DNA of 64,000 nt from Herbiconiux moechotypicola (GTDB lineage: Bacteria > Actinomycetota > Actinomycetes > Actinomycetales > Microbacteriaceae): the NCBI RefSeq assembly GCF_024979255.1, contig NZ_JANLCN010000011.1:62001-126000 (forward strand). The letters run 5' to 3'. Below, piece after piece: positions 31,074 through 57,001 of the stretch. Within the stretch, counting starts at the first letter, position 1, and the number at the start of each line of letters is the position of its first letter. The notes beneath the pieces are model-generated. The model made no database searches and was not told where the DNA came from. It saw nothing but the letters and a program-made list of their open reading frames with translations. The position numbers and the translations under genes are program-made.

Positions 31074-31094
31074 CAGATCGATTCCGAACCACCG

Positions 31095-31108
31095 ATAATG
31101 CACATTAT
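31095..31108. repeat. AT-rich palindrome upstream of the island
   Basis: ATAATG-CA-CATTAT, a perfect 6-bp inverted repeat with a 2-base centre, lies 17 bases before the left 18-bp inverted repeat. The surroundings are much lower in GC than the flanking chromosome. Confidence 0.5.
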
Positions 31109-31124
31109 GTCAACAAGAATGAGC

Positions 31125-31142
31125 ATTATTGCATCTGATGCA
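31125..31142 (+). repeat. 18-bp inverted repeat, left copy
   Basis: ATTATTGCATCTGATGCA. It matches the reverse complement of 31862-31879 at 17 of 18 positions, so the two copies bracket the TPR-like gene. The left copy also contains a perfect 8-bp palindrome with a one-base centre (ATTGCATC, T, GATGCAAT; 31128-31144), the shape of a repressor site. Confidence 0.8.
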
Positions 31143-31206
31143 ATCGCACCATTTCAGTCTCGGCGCGTCTTGCCTCTCATCCCCCACGAGCCGAGATGAT
31201 CCGACT

Positions 31207-31836
31207 GTGAGCGATGACTGGTTTAGAGGTCCCGAGTGGGACGCAGACACCCGAGATTTGTTCGAGTCCAAGCTCCGAAGAGCTCTCAGGTCAAATCGTC
31301 AACAGTATCTGAGGATCAAAGCGCTCGGACTTTTGGGCGGCGGTCGTGAAAGCGATGCCGTAGAGCTGTTTCATCGATCGATCGCCGAAGGCACATACTT
31401 CTTTCAAACCGTGTCGGCATGGGAGAGCCTCGGGGAGATCGCTGCGCATCGAGGCGATCGGGAAGAAGCGATCAAGTACTTTCGAAAAGTCATCATCGAG
31501 CAACCTTCGCTCAGTGGCACATCTGGTGCGACCGAGATCTCTCTCGCCGAAGTCCTCCTCGACTCAGGGCGACCAAACGATCTCGACGAGTCTCGCGCCT
31601 TACTCGATTCGTGGATGAGCCGCGACCAGTTGAAGTTCAACTCGACCCTCTTCCGCTGGCACCTGGCTCAAATTCGGATCGCTGAGCGTGTTGGCGATCG
31701 TAATGCTGCCCGCTCGCTGGCATTGAAGGCTCTCGAGTTGGCAGCCAGCGGACCCCAACTCCCCCGCCACAAAGACGTCGGACTGGTGAAAGTGGAGAAG
31801 GCCACGCTCCGACATCTGAAGCATCTTAGTAGGTGA
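31207..31836 (+). CDS. TPR-like hypothetical protein on the recombinase island
   Basis: 209 residues from the GTG at 31207 (preceding bases GATCCGACT carry no strong ribosome site); the frame is open from an ATG at 31129, but that would read through the left inverted repeat. The sequence is helical with tetratricopeptide-like pairs: LGGGRESDAVELFHRSIAEGTYFFQTVSAWESLGEIAAHRGDREEAIKYFRKVI, and later RIAERVGDRNAARSLALKALELA. No enzyme motif. GC and codon use are lower than in neighbouring genes, pointing to acquisition with the recombinase genes downstream. Function unknown; TPR proteins usually mediate protein-protein contacts. Confidence 0.7.
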   Translation: MSDDWFRGPEWDADTRDLFESKLRRALRSNRQQYLRIKALGLLGGGRESDAVELFHRSIAEGTYFFQTVSAWESLGEIAAHRGDREEAIKYFRKVIIEQPSLSGTSGATEISLAEVLLDSGRPNDLDESRALLDSWMSRDQLKFNSTLFRWHLAQIRIAERVGDRNAARSLALKALELAASGPQLPRHKDVGLVKVEKATLRHLKHLSR

Positions 31837-31860: not shown

Positions 31861-31895
31861 GTGCATCAAATGCAATAATCATGCAACTGATGCAC
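31861..31895 (+). promoter_or_regulatory. Operator-like palindromic site upstream of the recombinase; right 18-bp repeat
   Basis: Outer inverted repeat GTGCATCA (31861-31868) and TGATGCAC (31888-31895) with two direct ATGCAA copies between them. The first 18 bases from 31862 are the inverted copy of the left repeat at 31125-31142. The site ends 14 bases before the recombinase ATG, where a bound regulator would control the recombinase operon. The small HTH protein encoded in the operon is a candidate ligand. Confidence 0.65.
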
Positions 31896-31909: not shown

Positions 31910-33013
31910 ATGACCGTCGATTTCCGAGGGATTGCTTCTCCCCCGCCTCGGATCACTCTGCTTCACCCTGAGGATCAGATCGTCCAGGAGATGCTCGATG
32001 GGTGGCGGAATCAGCAACTGTCACGGGCGTTGAGTTTCCAAACGATCGCGCAGCGGGAGCAGATCATTACCCGCTTCCTGGCCTTCACGAATGAGCATCC
32101 CTGGAACTGGTCACCCGCACTCGTCGACGAGTTCTTCGGAGATCTCCGCTCCACGAGCGGGGTCAAGCAGACGACTCTCCGGAACTATCAGAACACATTG
32201 AGCCTGTTCTGCGGCTACGTGAGCGACCCCGGCTACGGCTGGACGAGGGTCTGCCTCGAGCTGTTCGGCACTCACCCGACGCAGGTCTGCTTCGAGTGGA
32301 ACACCGCGACCCACGTTCAGGAGGCCGAGGCAGGCCCGGGCAAGCGAGCCTTCACAAAGGTCGAGCTGCAATCGCTGTTCGACCGCGCCGACGACGAGAC
32401 GATCCGCATCGCCCGTCACAACAGGAAGGGGTGGCTGCCGGCGTTCCGAGACAGTGTCGTGTTCAAGATCGCCTATGCCTACGGTCTTCGCCGCAACGAG
32501 GTCCGTCACCTCGAGACCGTCGATTTCACCCGCAACCGGCACGCGAGGGAGTTGGGGTCGAAGGGTGTTTTCAACGTCCGGCACGGCAAGGCGATGAAGG
32601 GTTCGGCGCCGAAACGCCGCAGTGTTCTGACGGTGTTCGATTGGACGCCCGAGATCCTCGACGAGTGGGAGGAACGCGGCCGCACCCGGATGACCGATGG
32701 CCACGAACTGTTGCCGAGCGAACGCGGGACCCTGGTCGCCGAGGCAGCGTTTAGCCCGAGGTTCCGCCGCTACCGTGACGAGCTCGCCCTCTCCCCCGGA
32801 CTCGATTTCCATTCGCTGCGCCGCTCTTACGTCACGCACCTGATCGAGGACGGCTACGACGCTCTCTTCGTCCAGCGGCAAGTCGGCCACGAATACGCCT
32901 CGACCACGGGTCTCTACACCTCCGTTTCCAGCGACTACCGCACCCGAACACTCCGCCGCGTGCTCGACCAGACCATCACTGACGCCCTCAACAGGAAGGC
33001 CCCCACACCATGA
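31910..33013 (+). CDS. Tyrosine recombinase/integrase
   Basis: 367 residues. A SAM-like N-terminal core-binding domain (about 25-125) is followed by a catalytic domain with the full set of active-site residues: Arg194 (YGLRRNE), Lys227 (RHGKAMK), His301 and Arg304 (HSLRRSY), His327 (VGHEYA) and nucleophile Tyr336 (TGLYTSVS). It should be an active site-specific recombinase. The stop overlaps the start of the HTH gene (ATGA); together with the next two genes it resembles recombinase-operon mobile elements of actinobacteria. No att site or tRNA is visible nearby. Confidence 0.93.
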   Translation: MTVDFRGIASPPPRITLLHPEDQIVQEMLDGWRNQQLSRALSFQTIAQREQIITRFLAFTNEHPWNWSPALVDEFFGDLRSTSGVKQTTLRNYQNTLSLFCGYVSDPGYGWTRVCLELFGTHPTQVCFEWNTATHVQEAEAGPGKRAFTKVELQSLFDRADDETIRIARHNRKGWLPAFRDSVVFKIAYAYGLRRNEVRHLETVDFTRNRHARELGSKGVFNVRHGKAMKGSAPKRRSVLTVFDWTPEILDEWEERGRTRMTDGHELLPSERGTLVAEAAFSPRFRRYRDELALSPGLDFHSLRRSYVTHLIEDGYDALFVQRQVGHEYASTTGLYTSVSSDYRTRTLRRVLDQTITDALNRKAPTP

Positions 33014-33342
33014 CCAGCCGTGCCGTCGACTACCAGTGGCACCTCACCGAGCTCATGGCCCGCAACGCGATGCACAACACCACCGACCTCGCCTCCCACC
33101 TCACAGAACGCGGCATCACCCTGTCGGCCTCACAGGTCTATCGCCTCGTCACGAACCGGCCTGAACGCATTTCCCTGCCGATCCTCTCGGCGCTCTGCGA
33201 CATCTTCGGCTGCACCCCCGCCGAACTCATCACCGTCACCGCCGAGAACGCGAAGCCCACCAAGAAGATCGTGAACTCCGAAGTCATCGACCTCAACACC
33301 CAGGTCCGCCCACGACGGGCACGCGTCGTCAGCGATGACTAA
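33010..33342 (+). CDS. Small Cro/C1-type HTH protein
   Basis: 110 residues. A Cro/C1 helix-turn-helix (TDLASHLTERGITLSASQVYRLVTNRPERISLPILSALCDIFGCTPAELI, about 25-75) is followed by a basic tail (RPRRARVV). Overlaps both neighbours (ATGA at the start; the downstream ATG lies eight bases inside its 3' end), so stoichiometric expression with the two recombinase-like proteins is likely. Probable regulator or directionality factor of the element; the palindromes at 31128-31144 and 31861-31895 are candidate targets. Confidence 0.85.
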   Translation: MTSRAVDYQWHLTELMARNAMHNTTDLASHLTERGITLSASQVYRLVTNRPERISLPILSALCDIFGCTPAELITVTAENAKPTKKIVNSEVIDLNTQVRPRRARVVSDD

Positions 33343-34832
33343 GCAGCAGCCAAGGCCGGCTGAACGACGAGGTCGGCCCCGCTCGACCGGGAACCTGCAC
33401 TGCGACCGTTGCGGCCGCGACTGCAACAGGATCGCCGCCCGCTGGCCCGACAGGGATCTCTGCGGGATCTGCTTCACCGCCGCCACCAACACCCGCGGAA
33501 CCTGTCCCGGATGCGGCGTCGACCGGATGCTGCCCGGACTAGACACGCAGGGCCGGAGCATCTGTGTTGAGTGCGCCGGCATTCCTACCCAGTTCCACTG
33601 CGGGACCTGCCGCGAAGAACAACCCCGCTATCGCAAAGGCACCTGCGCCCGCTGCAGCCTCCGCATCGACCTCGCAGGTCTCCTTATCCCCGACGGCGCC
33701 GCGAAGCCAACCGCGATGGCGCTCTTGGAATCGCTGGTCACCGCCGACCGTCCCGAGAGCATCATCACCTGGATGCGACACCCCGGCGTGATCGACGTCC
33801 TCACCCAGCTCGGAAGCGGCACCCTCTCGCCCACCCACGAAGCCTTCGACGCACTCCCTCCCGGCCGCCACATGGAACACATCCGCGCCATCCTCATCGA
33901 CACCGGACAACTCCCGCCCCGAGACGACGCCCTCGCCCGCTTCGAACGCTGGCTCGCCGACAAACTCGCACCGATCACCGACGCCACGATGCGCCGCCCA
34001 GTCGAACAATTCGCCCGCTGGCATCACCTCCGCAGCATCCGGAAACGATCGTCCGCCGACACGACCAGCCAAGCCGCGACTCACAACGCGAAACAAGAGA
34101 TCACTGCAGCGATCACCTTTCTCGCCTGGCTCACGGACGACGCCAATCACACACTGTCCACCTGCACCCAAAGCGACATCGACCGCTGGCTCTCGAGCGG
34201 ACCAACGACCAGATTCAACATCCGCACGTTCATCATCTTCGCCGTGGACGAACGACTCAGTCCGCCACTTGTCGTCCCGCATCGATCCGCGCGCAGCAGC
34301 AGGCGCCTGACGCCAGAAGACCGATTCGACGGCATCCGGAACTGTCTTGAGAACACAACCATCCCGGTCTCCACCCGAGTTGCGGCCCTGCTCCTGCTGC
34401 TCTTCGCACAACCACTCTCACGCGTCTGCTCACTCACGACCGATGCCGTCCAAAGAGAGCCGAACGGCATGACCATCACCTTCGACGCCCAGCCCAACGA
34501 GCTCCCGGCGCTCTTCGCCACTCTGATCGATCAGCACCTCGCCCACCGCTCACCAGCCAGAACAAGAAATGCCGACCACTCCCCCCTGGGTCTTTCCCGG
34601 AGGCAAGGCCGGCCACCACATCACCCACAGCTATCTGCTCACCCAGATCCGCGAACTTGGCCTCAACCCACTCGCCACCCGAAACCGGGCCCTCGACGAC
34701 CTCGTCACCGCCATGCCCGCACCACTCGTCGCAGAACTCTTCGCCTACAGTTACCAAGGCACCACAAAACACGCCAACGAGAACGCAGTCGAGTTCGCTC
34801 GCTACACAGCCGCCCGCCAAGAATTTCGGTGA
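33335..34832 (+). pseudogene. Zinc-ribbon recombinase-like protein, frameshifted in a C6 tract
   Basis: The N-terminal part, about 416 codons, reads MTKQQPRPAERRGRP and then many CxxC pairs (HCDRCGRDC, CGIC, CPGCG, CVEC, CGTC, CARC), i.e. several zinc ribbons. A helical region and the recombinase-like LLLLLFAQPLSRVCSLTTDAV follow. At the run of six C (34581-34586) the frame is lost. Removing one C joins it to the downstream frame, PWVFPGGKAGHHITHSYLLTQIRELG, and TRNRALDDLVTAMPAPLVAELFAYSYQGTTKHA, ending at 34832. The joined protein would be 498 residues. The C-terminal half resembles a degenerate tyrosine-recombinase domain. Sequencing error, true inactivation or phase-variable tract cannot be distinguished here. 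Confidence 0.8.
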
Positions 34833-34842
34833 ATCGTTGGCC

Positions 34843-35367
34843 TCATAGCGCCGATGGCGGGAAGGAACTCTCCTCCCAAATCAGACCTGACTCTGACGCC
34901 TGCGATTCAAGAGCATCGCGGACTGTCGTGATTCTGTCCTCCGGGCACGCAAGCGCAATCAACTTCTCCGAATAGACGTCGATGAGACAGCCGAGTTCCC
35001 GATACTTCTCGGCAACCGATTTCCACTTCGTAGTAAGCGCCTCATCTTCACCAAGCCAGATCCGGAACGCTCCGAACGAACCCCGCTCGCGAATCTCGTT
35101 CACAACAAGTGAGCCCTCTGCGGAGCGGATCACGCTCACCCTGTCACCAAAGGCGACCCCATAGGCGAGGGCTGGAGCAGCACGAACCTCGACGAGCCCG
35201 GTCTCAGTGAGCCGGCCGTTCAGCGCTTCCCAGATTTGGTCCCCGTCGCCCTCCCTAGGGAGAGCGAACCAGACCTCGGAATCGGACTCCGCAGCCAGTG
35301 GCGATGGCACGAGTTCCCGCCCAGACCACTCCGCAGTTTTGCTGGCATGACGGCGATAGATCGGCAT
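34843..35367 (-). CDS. DUF4265-like protein
   Basis: 174 residues from the ATG at 35367; a GTG at 35445 would add 26 residues, and neither has a strong ribosome site. The body (EVWFALPREGDGDQIWEALNGRLTETGLVEVRAAPALAYGVAFGDRVSVIRSAEGSLVVNEI, then YRELGCLIDVYSEKLIALACPED) follows the DUF4265 pattern: two linked alpha/beta subdomains of unknown function, often found next to polymorphic-toxin or mobile genes. It faces the recombinase operon with a 10-base gap. An immunity-like role is possible but not supported by a visible toxin. Confidence 0.65.
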   Translation of the reverse strand: MPIYRRHASKTAEWSGRELVPSPLAAESDSEVWFALPREGDGDQIWEALNGRLTETGLVEVRAAPALAYGVAFGDRVSVIRSAEGSLVVNEIRERGSFGAFRIWLGEDEALTTKWKSVAEKYRELGCLIDVYSEKLIALACPEDRITTVRDALESQASESGLIWEESSFPPSAL

Positions 35368-35462
35368 CTTTGGACTCTGACGGGCGGCCTCGATAGCTAT
35401 ACGCCAGGGATTACCATGGACTCGAATATTGCTCGCTACCAGCACTACGGATTAGCAGCCGG

Positions 35463-35699
35463 CTAGTCGCCGAGGTCGTGCAGGAATTCCCCCCAACGCG
35501 TGTCGGCGTCAGCTCCAGAGTCGAATTCACCCAGCCATGTGTCGAAGGCCGGCGTGCCCAGAATCTCAACCCGCAGAATGTGGTGGGTGCCGTCTCGGTG
35601 CACTTTCGGCACGACCGAGACGACGTGTTCGGGATTAATCCACATCCGTGCGCTTCCAGCAGGACCGTCCCTGTCAGGCAGTGGAACGAATCGCGGCAT
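35463..35699 (-). CDS. Small hypothetical protein
   Basis: 78 residues, start ATG at 35699 without a clear ribosome site. The sequence (MWINPEHVVSVVPKVHRDGTHHILRVEILGTPAFDTWLGEFDSGADADTRWGEFLHDLGD) has the alternating pattern of a small beta-rich fold with a C-terminal helix. No known domain recognised. It precedes the DUF4265 gene on the same strand by 95 bases. The 165 bases upstream of it contain no further gene that I can support. Confidence 0.45.
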   Translation of the reverse strand: MPRFVPLPDRDGPAGSARMWINPEHVVSVVPKVHRDGTHHILRVEILGTPAFDTWLGEFDSGADADTRWGEFLHDLGD

Positions 35700-55946: not shown

Positions 55947-56303
55947 ATGGAGATCGTGACGAGCAGGCTCGACGTGATGAACCGGCTGGGGCGCGCCATG
56001 GCCGACCCGAGTCGGTCGCGCATCCTGTTGCTGCTGCTCGAGGCTCCGGCGTATCCCGCAGCGATCGCCGAGAGCCTCGGGATGACGCGGCAGAACGTGT
56101 CGAATCACCTCACCTGCCTCCGCGACTGCGGGATCGTCGTGGCCGAGCCGGAGGGGCGGCATCAGCGTTACGAGATCGCGGATGCGCACCTCGCACGGGC
56201 CCTGAACGACCTGGTGGGCGTCGTGCTGGCGGTCGACACGTCGGCGCCGTGCAACGACGAAGCGTGCACGGTACCCGGATGCTGCGGGGCGGCGGCCCGA
56301 TGA
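55947..56303 (+). CDS. cmtR: CmtR-type ArsR/SmtB metal sensor
   Basis: 118 residues. Winged-HTH SRSRILLLLLEAPAYPAAIAESLGMTRQNVSNHLTCLRDCGIVVAEPEGRHQRYEIAD. Cys57 and Cys61 in the recognition-helix motif HLTCLRDC and Cys102 near the C-terminus occupy the positions of the Cd/Pb-binding site of Mycobacterium CmtR (Cys57, Cys61, Cys102); three more Cys follow (107, 112, 113). It should derepress the exporter gene in Cd or Pb. The stop overlaps the exporter ATG. Confidence 0.92.
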   Translation: MEIVTSRLDVMNRLGRAMADPSRSRILLLLLEAPAYPAAIAESLGMTRQNVSNHLTCLRDCGIVVAEPEGRHQRYEIADAHLARALNDLVGVVLAVDTSAPCNDEACTVPGCCGAAAR

Positions 56304-57001
56304 CGGCGGCGGTCGCACAGCTGGGCGACGCGCGCCGAACGGTGCTGCAGCGACGCATCCGGCTCATCGTCACCGCGACCATCGGGTACAACCTGATCGA
56401 GGCGGTGGTGGCGATCGCCGCGGGCTCGGCCGCGTCGTCCGGGGCGCTCATCGGGTTCGGGCTCGACTCCACCATCGAGGTGCTCTCCGCGGGCGCCGTC
56501 GCCTGGCAGTTCACGCGCCGGGATCCGGAGCACTGGGAGAAGGGGACGCTGCGGGTGATCGCGGTGGCCTTCTTCGCGCTGGCCGTCTATGTGAGCGTGA
56601 GCGCGGTGCTCGCCCTCACCCGGGTCATCGAGCCGGAGCACAGCACGGTGGGAATCGTGCTCACCGCACTCAGCGTCGTCATCATGCCCTTCCTCTCGCT
56701 CGCGGAGCGCCGCACCGGGCGAGAGCTCGGGTCGGCCACCGCGGTCGCGGATTCCAAGCAGACCCTCGTGTGCGCCTGCCTCTCAGCGGCGGTTCTGCTC
56801 GGCCTGCTCCTCAACACTCTGTTCGGCTGGTGGTGGGCCGACCCGGTGGCCGCGCTCGTGATCGTGGTCTTCGCCGTGCGCGAGGGCGTCGAGGCCTGGA
56901 AGGGCGACGCCTGCGCGACCTCGGTCGGGATGCTGCTCGACGACGACGACCACGGCACCGACGACGATTGTCACCACGACGGCGCGCACCACGGCCGGTG
57001 A
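56300..57001 (+). CDS. Cation diffusion facilitator (CDF) metal exporter
   Basis: 233 residues, about six membrane helices. FGLDSTIEV and VADSKQTL carry the transport-site Asp residues of CDF proteins. The C-terminus ends in a metal-binding-looking tail of Asp, Cys and His (DDDDHGTDDDCHHDGAHHGR). Translation is coupled to the CmtR gene. Probably exports Cd, Zn or Pb under control of that sensor. The cytoplasmic ferredoxin-like domain of long CDFs is missing. Confidence 0.9.
   Translation: MTAAVAQLGDARRTVLQRRIRLIVTATIGYNLIEAVVAIAAGSAASSGALIGFGLDSTIEVLSAGAVAWQFTRRDPEHWEKGTLRVIAVAFFALAVYVSVSAVLALTRVIEPEHSTVGIVLTALSVVIMPFLSLAERRTGRELGSATAVADSKQTLVCACLSAAVLLGLLLNTLFGWWWADPVAALVIVVFAVREGVEAWKGDACATSVGMLLDDDDHGTDDDCHHDGAHHGR

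Follow-up and report, generated by a model that had tools for sequence, protein, structure and literature searches.

A trio of overlapping genes, encoding a tyrosine recombinase (YR), a small helix-turn-helix (HTH) protein and a large zinc-ribbon protein, lies beside the chromosomal dif site in a 64,000-nucleotide stretch of Herbiconiux moechotypicola DNA and probably serves as the recombination machinery of an integrative element settling against the outer edge of that site. The stretch, hereafter the window, is G000:C3:62001-126000, within a 51-contig draft assembly (G, C and L numbers denote genomes, contigs and loci). In the open reading frame (ORF) list of the window, the three genes are on the + strand, each overlapping the next, and their description as a tight operon by an earlier, sequence-only reading holds down to the coordinates. 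The first gene (31910..33013, +) encodes a YR of 367 residues that matches the Pfam family Phage_integrase (E 2.8e-16) and possesses a complete R-K-H-R-H-Y set, with R194, K227, H301, R304, H327 and Y336 invariant in a five-row alignment, which confirms the six catalytic residues attributed to it. The second (33010..33342, +) encodes a Cro/C1-type HTH protein of 110 residues, as proposed, matching HTH_26 (E 7.6e-16). The third begins with a part (33335..34582, +) covering the zinc ribbons and most of a seemingly dead YR fold, loses its frame at a C tract (34581-34586), and continues in another frame (34587..34832, +) with a C-terminal part 40% identical to residues 404-480 of the corresponding protein of Herbiconiux sp. 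SALV-R1. Both the YR and the HTH gene are present in 70 of the 72 third-gene relatives with at least 1.5 kb of upstream DNA, which implies that the trio is no chance arrangement; the separate occurrence of the HTH and third genes, named earlier as something that would weaken the trio idea, is thus not what is seen.

dif is the site that bacteria use to separate their chromosomes, that is, for chromosome dimer resolution. In the window, a chromosomal dif of 28 bp (31088..31115, +) forms the left border of the element, and its bases 31092-31113, CCGATAATGCACATTATGTCAA, match, base for base, the 22-base core of a dif predicted for Frankia alni and cited in a passage of PMC3025954. The 5' end of the element (31116..31146, +) follows at once, with the palindrome TATTGCATCTGATGCAATC at 31127-31145, and a similar end stands directly past dif in relatives. 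Two operator-like palindromes, TGCATCAAATGCA and TGCAACTGATGCA (31862..31894, +; starts at 31862 and 31882), lie just 5' of the YR start. The probable 3' end (35422..35442, +) shares 18 of 21 bases with the 3' end at a tandem junction of another locus (L121) and is the sole match of that type in the window at up to four mismatches, shuffled windows having given 2 in 200; scoring the window with a weight matrix derived from other 3' ends, by contrast, brought up no candidate better than shuffled sequence. All 16 genomes of the genus have a dif match at no more than two mismatches, 13 of them just one, while G003, G012 and G013 have a second with a different centre, and dif is the left border of an element in the window's own genome, in G004 and in SALV-R1 (G006). 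The dif border, the ends of the element, the stacking described below and the prior publication of such trios as XER modules had all escaped the sequence-only reading.

Relatives were collected with a query alignment built from four third proteins, run against genome contigs; it returned 128, 80 of which were kept for the counts of loci. The family occurs in many soil actinobacteria: nearly all relatives are titled as such, and the two with odd titles, Vibrio cholerae 35D and an Acidobacteria metagenome-assembled genome, are probably cases of contamination or misbinning; the former (L073) carries an Arthrobacter-type trio. The 80 loci, 1.24 Mb in total, contain 53 dif-like sites with at most two mismatches, as against none after one base shuffle per locus. 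With 26 of the 80 ineligible for a spacing count (too little upstream DNA), 54 relatives with at least 1.9 kb upstream remain, and in 43 of them a dif-like site lies on the + strand 1,640-1,860 bp before the third gene; after pooling at 95% identity, 40 of 48 clusters have a site in this 220-bp slot. At least one exact GATAAN6TTATGTMA occurs in 27 of 30 trio genomes, and exactly one in 21. Of 55 elements, 43 have a palindrome of the CATCNGATG type in the 5' zone, 24 have one in the promoter zone and 21 in both, whereas the three control zones gave 1, 0 and 0 (this count left out L077 and loci with less than 1.8 kb upstream).

The same one-sided habit is seen at the chromosomal dif of the Pseudarthrobacter group, in which 47 of 61 genomes have exactly one GATAATCTACATTATGTMA, situated near the middle of a chromosome-size contig in, for example, G127 (2,064,104 of 4,250,414) and G144 (2,110,554 of 4,362,309). 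Flanks were read for 30 of these 47 sites: the element palindrome occurs within 70 bp to the right of dif in 12 and to the left in none, and a YR of the family lies within 1.5 kb to the right in nine and to the left in one. A profile search of 20 genomes, chosen by us among those with dif, found the third protein in 14, and all ten matches of at least 600 bits fall within 6 kb to the right of dif or of a dif-like site. G127 has three copies, 99.8-99.9% identical, one at dif, one at a second chromosomal dif-like site and one on a plasmid-size contig. Could this simply be an ordinary transposon, similar to Tn554 or to the recombinase-in-trio (RIT) elements, whose place near dif is due to chance or to a terminus permissive for insertions? 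The region to the right of dif does vary between genomes and, in the window, is low in G+C, and distant trios are located elsewhere; yet neither chance nor tolerance accounts for a single spacing and orientation shared by 43 of the 54 relatives, also at plasmid sites, or for a palindrome found only on the right, and with no sites in shuffled loci we reject a chance location, the transposon explanation as a whole being scarcely credible. At one Pseudarthrobacter-group dif (L159), a few bases of a 5' end are joined to an apparent 3' end, a remnant of an element almost all of which has been deleted.

The third protein was found in 9 of 60 genomes, the window's own included, and SALV-R1 has it in four copies of the element, each some 4.3 kb long. 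Where aligned, these are 99.86-99.98% identical, with the same sharp ends and differing flanks. One sits at the chromosomal dif and three at dif-like sites of a plasmid (NZ_CP053345.1, 124,450 bp), the latter of the form CGATA-N7-TTATGTCAA with centres that differ from dif; their cargo is an ArsR regulator plus a cation transporter. In most of the clade, a TCTGCGTATTGCATCAGATGAATCA-like start lies a few bases past TTATGTMAAGTAG, copies of the Arthrobacter group finish in AATCCGCAGGGATGCCAGTA or similar, and the cargo between the third gene and the 3' end varies among copies. We had considered TTATGTCAA as the end of the element and CCGATA as its target in SALV-R1, an assignment dropped when element-free sites proved to carry TTATGTMA and second copies in tandem proved to lack it. 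Sites with no recognisable element beside them, dif and dif-like ones alike, do exist, and since they carry TTATGTMA, this motif belongs to the target. In tandem arrays no dif precedes the second copy: dif remains whole, and the elements stack on its XerD side. Paenarthrobacter ureafaciens AT, for instance, has two tandem copies, repeating every 4,714 bp, to the right of a plasmid dif-like site. Its record pD (L167, NZ_CP094493.1, 4,712 bp) consists of the element alone, with no annotated replication gene; we do not count it as proof of an excised circle, as it ends at the repeat boundary, 2 bp short of the tandem period, and may therefore be an assembler's repeat contig.

An alternative is that the host XerC/XerD enzymes move the element at dif, as they do for IMEX elements, the trio being only cargo or a helper. 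Such elements use the same site (according to the relevant part of PMC5357621), and a unit of 740 bp in G003, which has the two ends of the element but lacks the trio, lies at dif. The border, however, is the outer edge of the 28-bp dif and not its 6-bp centre, the plasmid sites differ from dif in the centre, and the 3' ends and tandem junctions examined carry no copy of dif, a point that disfavours IMEX-type movement as the sole explanation. The trio, moreover, is retained in nearly all relatives, and the small G003 unit could move in trans. Taken together, we regard purely host-driven movement as unlikely. The G003 unit itself (L039:7955-8697), directly to the right of dif, is either non-autonomous or decayed.

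No Pfam family matches the third protein at E values up to 1. An alignment of the window sequence with 46 of the 50 intact proteins contains 12 cysteines arranged as three CxxC..CxxC pairs that are invariant in all 47 homologues of the clade. In a model of one relative's protein, compared by VIA-align, the C-terminal half adopts a YR fold comprising the core-binding and catalytic domains, whereas the catalytic places, assigned by motif alignment, have largely been lost: that of the first arginine is P in 46 of 47 homologues, that of the second histidine Y in 45 and that of the nucleophilic tyrosine A in 44, while R457 is retained in 46 and Y498, present in 45, is off-register. Phage_integrase matched 2 of the 47 members, weakly, and the profile of the third protein, searched against solved structures, identified no recombinase by sequence. 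As far as the model goes, the protein is thus a YR fold without the nucleophilic tyrosine and the R-H-R-H set, and the invariant cysteine pairs and the modelled fold agree with the zinc-ribbon protein with a degenerate recombinase half described beforehand.

What does the frame break in the window copy signify? The SALV-R1 protein aligns through residues 3-389 to 33374-34543 and through residues 404-480 to 34587-34817 in a different frame, so the break at the six consecutive C (34581-34586) is real in this assembly, as first reported, and the 498 residues given there for the restored protein are in keeping with relatives, whose proteins span 455-633 residues from match start to stop (median 504; 46 of 50 proteins). 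A first pass took 52 of the 80 loci, 50 of them uninterrupted; a later one covered all 80 and found the gene in a single piece of at least 430 residues in 71, cut by a contig end in one, and interrupted or short in eight. The local break motif, absent from 8 of 80 relatives (from 4 of 50 in an earlier count), shows a run of six C in none of the remaining 72; the longest run is five, in four of them. The sequence-only reading had offered, among other possibilities, a slippage switch. In its programmed form, such a switch would determine how much full-length third protein is made. A C6 tract lies at the break, the YR and HTH genes are intact, and in two Arthrobacter relatives the gene breaks at the residue equivalent to the window break (L080) or six residues past it, and again near its start (L077), which raises the odds of a switch slightly. 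Against it, both have C runs of only four at that place, the window contains 11 runs of six C or G, and the G004 copy of the same genus, whose YR lacks its first part, is broken elsewhere in the third gene. Uninterrupted relatives without a C6 tract make a conserved slippage switch very unlikely, leaving the common place of the break in L080 unexplained.

The break, then, looks like a lesion. A competing reading, which we consider doubtful, if less so than the switch, is that it is an assembly or sequencing error and that the window element is fully active. A homopolymer tract in a draft of 51 contigs invites such an error, and the YR, the HTH protein and both ends look sound; on the other side stands the decay of the G004 copy. 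An error would in any case be compatible with the explanation favoured here for the family, in which intact third genes exist, that of SALV-R1 among them. Judged by its broken third gene, the window copy looks worn out and is by itself probably immobile.

In the window copy, a passenger ORF (31207..31836, +; frame open from 31129) encodes a tetratricopeptide-repeat protein (TPR_2, E 5.8e-08), and another (34843..35445, -) a DUF4265 protein (E 2.5e-13). Beyond the probable 3' end lies a 78-residue ORF of the next unit (35463..35699, -), homologous DNA adjoining dif-like sites on the right on other contigs of G001, G010 and G014. An ArsR regulator and a cation-efflux transporter (55947..57001, +), homologous to the SALV-R1 cargo, mark the far edge of a low-GC region: the G+C content per kb is 0.70-0.76 at 25-31 kb, 0.56-0.70 at 31-56 kb and mostly at least 0.70 thereafter, as expected for an island grown by accretion. 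Several Herbiconiux genomes (L040, L041, L042, L197, L198 and the window) likewise have an ArsR gene, in some cases accompanied by one for the transporter, no more than about 5 kb from dif or a dif-like site, at some of these loci without a trio. In the window's own genome, dif-like sites at two contig ends (L190 and L191; G000:C17 near 7826 and G000:C19 near 55) are followed by element-like 5' ends, suggesting that further copies have probably been collapsed in the assembly. Short repeats in G009:C1:3497779-3498074, many at 15-bp steps, resemble part of the 3' end and probably belong to an unrelated repetitive gene. Finally, stretches of 3.6-13 kb with a whole or partial trio (L086, L087, L088, L089, L090, L094 and L134) are 99.97-100% identical across genera, being titled Tessaracoccus, Agrococcus, Leucobacter, Kocuria, Gulosibacter and Microbacterium (between L089 and L134 identity falls to 88% over 8.4 kb), and represent either very recent transfer or shared contamination.

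The explanation that we hold to be probable is that the trio provides the recombination functions of an integrative element whose attachment site is the outer, XerD-side edge of dif or of plasmid dif-like sites, dif itself being left whole. Several observations pull the other way. A dif-like site lies elsewhere in the locus in 7 of the 54 relatives and nowhere in 4; the exact site is absent from 3 of the 30 trio genomes and present two to four times in 6; under the strict pattern, 31 of 55 elements lack the promoter palindrome; and in the Pseudarthrobacter group the weaker, more distant matches of the third protein deviate, lying on the other side of dif (G138, G080) or away from it (G144). 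Neither a profile-profile comparison of the third protein with YRs nor its sequence profile alone gave a match. There is no empty-site pair, no long blastn match having crossed dif between the window's genome and element-free Herbiconiux loci; a clean pair with the same flanks is missing because the terminus is too variable. Six distant plasmid trios, including that of pA40H2 and two on linear replicons, have third proteins 28-36% identical and share the gene order, yet none shows a dif-like site where one would be expected (L203 has a two-mismatch match 627 bp before the YR), which indicates that the dif habit belongs to one clade, the window's included; such or similar palindromes do precede their YR, as judged by eye.

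The likeliest mechanism is that the YR, which by its residues should be catalytic, cuts and joins across a short A(G/C)TA(G/A)-like stretch, the candidate overlap common to the edge of dif and the 3' end of the element, presumably by way of a circular intermediate. The third protein, with its zinc ribbons and dead YR fold, might supply DNA recognition or fill subunits of the synapse, and the HTH protein may bind both sets of palindromes, those in the 5' end and those preceding the YR gene, and so control expression, perhaps also excision. Newcomers would insert between dif and older copies, and cargo would consequently stack on one side of the terminus. More tentatively, and with somewhat less than even confidence, dif might be seen as a docking port shared by chromosomes and plasmids across Actinobacteria, where a self-sufficient recombinase, led by a dead zinc-ribbon partner that recognises the XerD arm, inserts elements beside an unharmed dif, older copies being pushed outward into cargo islands of the terminus that could travel via plasmid dif-like sites. 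In either case, a target and ends can now be assigned to a trio that has so far been only a putative module, and a probable role to each of its proteins, and dif becomes a hot spot that can be checked in any genome; given the frequency of the element palindrome directly to the right of dif in the flanks read, this bears on the evolution of the terminus, on gene exchange between plasmids and chromosomes, and on the way in which a foreign recombinase might act at the site of XerC/XerD and leave cell division undisturbed.

The gene trio itself is already published: XER modules, described in 2018 from plasmids of Antarctic Arthrobacter, consist of a tyrosine recombinase XerD, an XRE regulator, a site-specific recombinase XerC and variable cargo (PMC6305408, section on these modules). 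The window element has the same three-gene core, a YR, an XRE/HTH protein and a second recombinase-like protein, with variable cargo, albeit with a broken third gene, and the XER-module plasmid pA40H2 (L199) shows the gene order of the window. The modules, however, lie between umuC and umuD, a location seen in three plasmids and not shown in that section to be required, whereas the window element lies at dif; pA40H2, unlike the window, has no dif-like site at that end. The term 'dif site' is absent from the main text of PMC6305408, its section on XER modules names neither ends nor a dead recombinase, and a literature search over titles and the beginnings of abstracts, leaving most subscription papers uncovered, found no report of the trio beside dif. 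Tn554 and its actinobacterial relatives are alike in combining a YR, a larger YR and often a small third protein and in being mobile on chromosomes and plasmids (PMC3414803, in the part concerned); they differ in that the Tn554 family has two catalytic YRs (TnpA, TnpB) plus TnpC, as opposed to the single catalytic YR found here, and in that the long recombinase of the Tn554-related elements, 611-828 residues, has a potential catalytic motif, whereas the large protein here has lost the catalytic residues and bears zinc ribbons. RIT elements, too, consist of three adjacent overlapping genes, but as described in passages of PMC3414803 and PMC8138268 all three encode YRs with a possible catalytic motif, whereas gene 2 here encodes an HTH_26 protein and the homologues of gene 3 lack the catalytic residues. 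The mobile-element operon with a multi-recombinase-like layout reminiscent of RIT elements, as envisaged by the sequence-only reading, stands, while its slippage switch is not supported. Strand-biased circularizing elements (SEs) and GInts resemble the present element in their site-specific insertion and in having, among their proteins, one of YR fold whose catalytic motif is incomplete (Tfp, GinC; sections of PMC10214605, PMC9345347 and PMC5385486); they have four core genes, two with a catalytic motif, as against three genes with one catalytic YR and an HTH protein, and the passage on the target of SE-6945 reports no dif-like motif. IMEX elements, lastly, integrate at dif and leave a dif site behind, just as here (relevant parts of PMC5357621 and PMC9765430). 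For their movement, however, they need the Xer enzymes of the host and an attP resembling dif. The tandem junctions and 3' ends read here carry no copy of dif, and the window-type element, in contrast to IMEX elements, encodes a YR itself and lies against the outer edge of dif.

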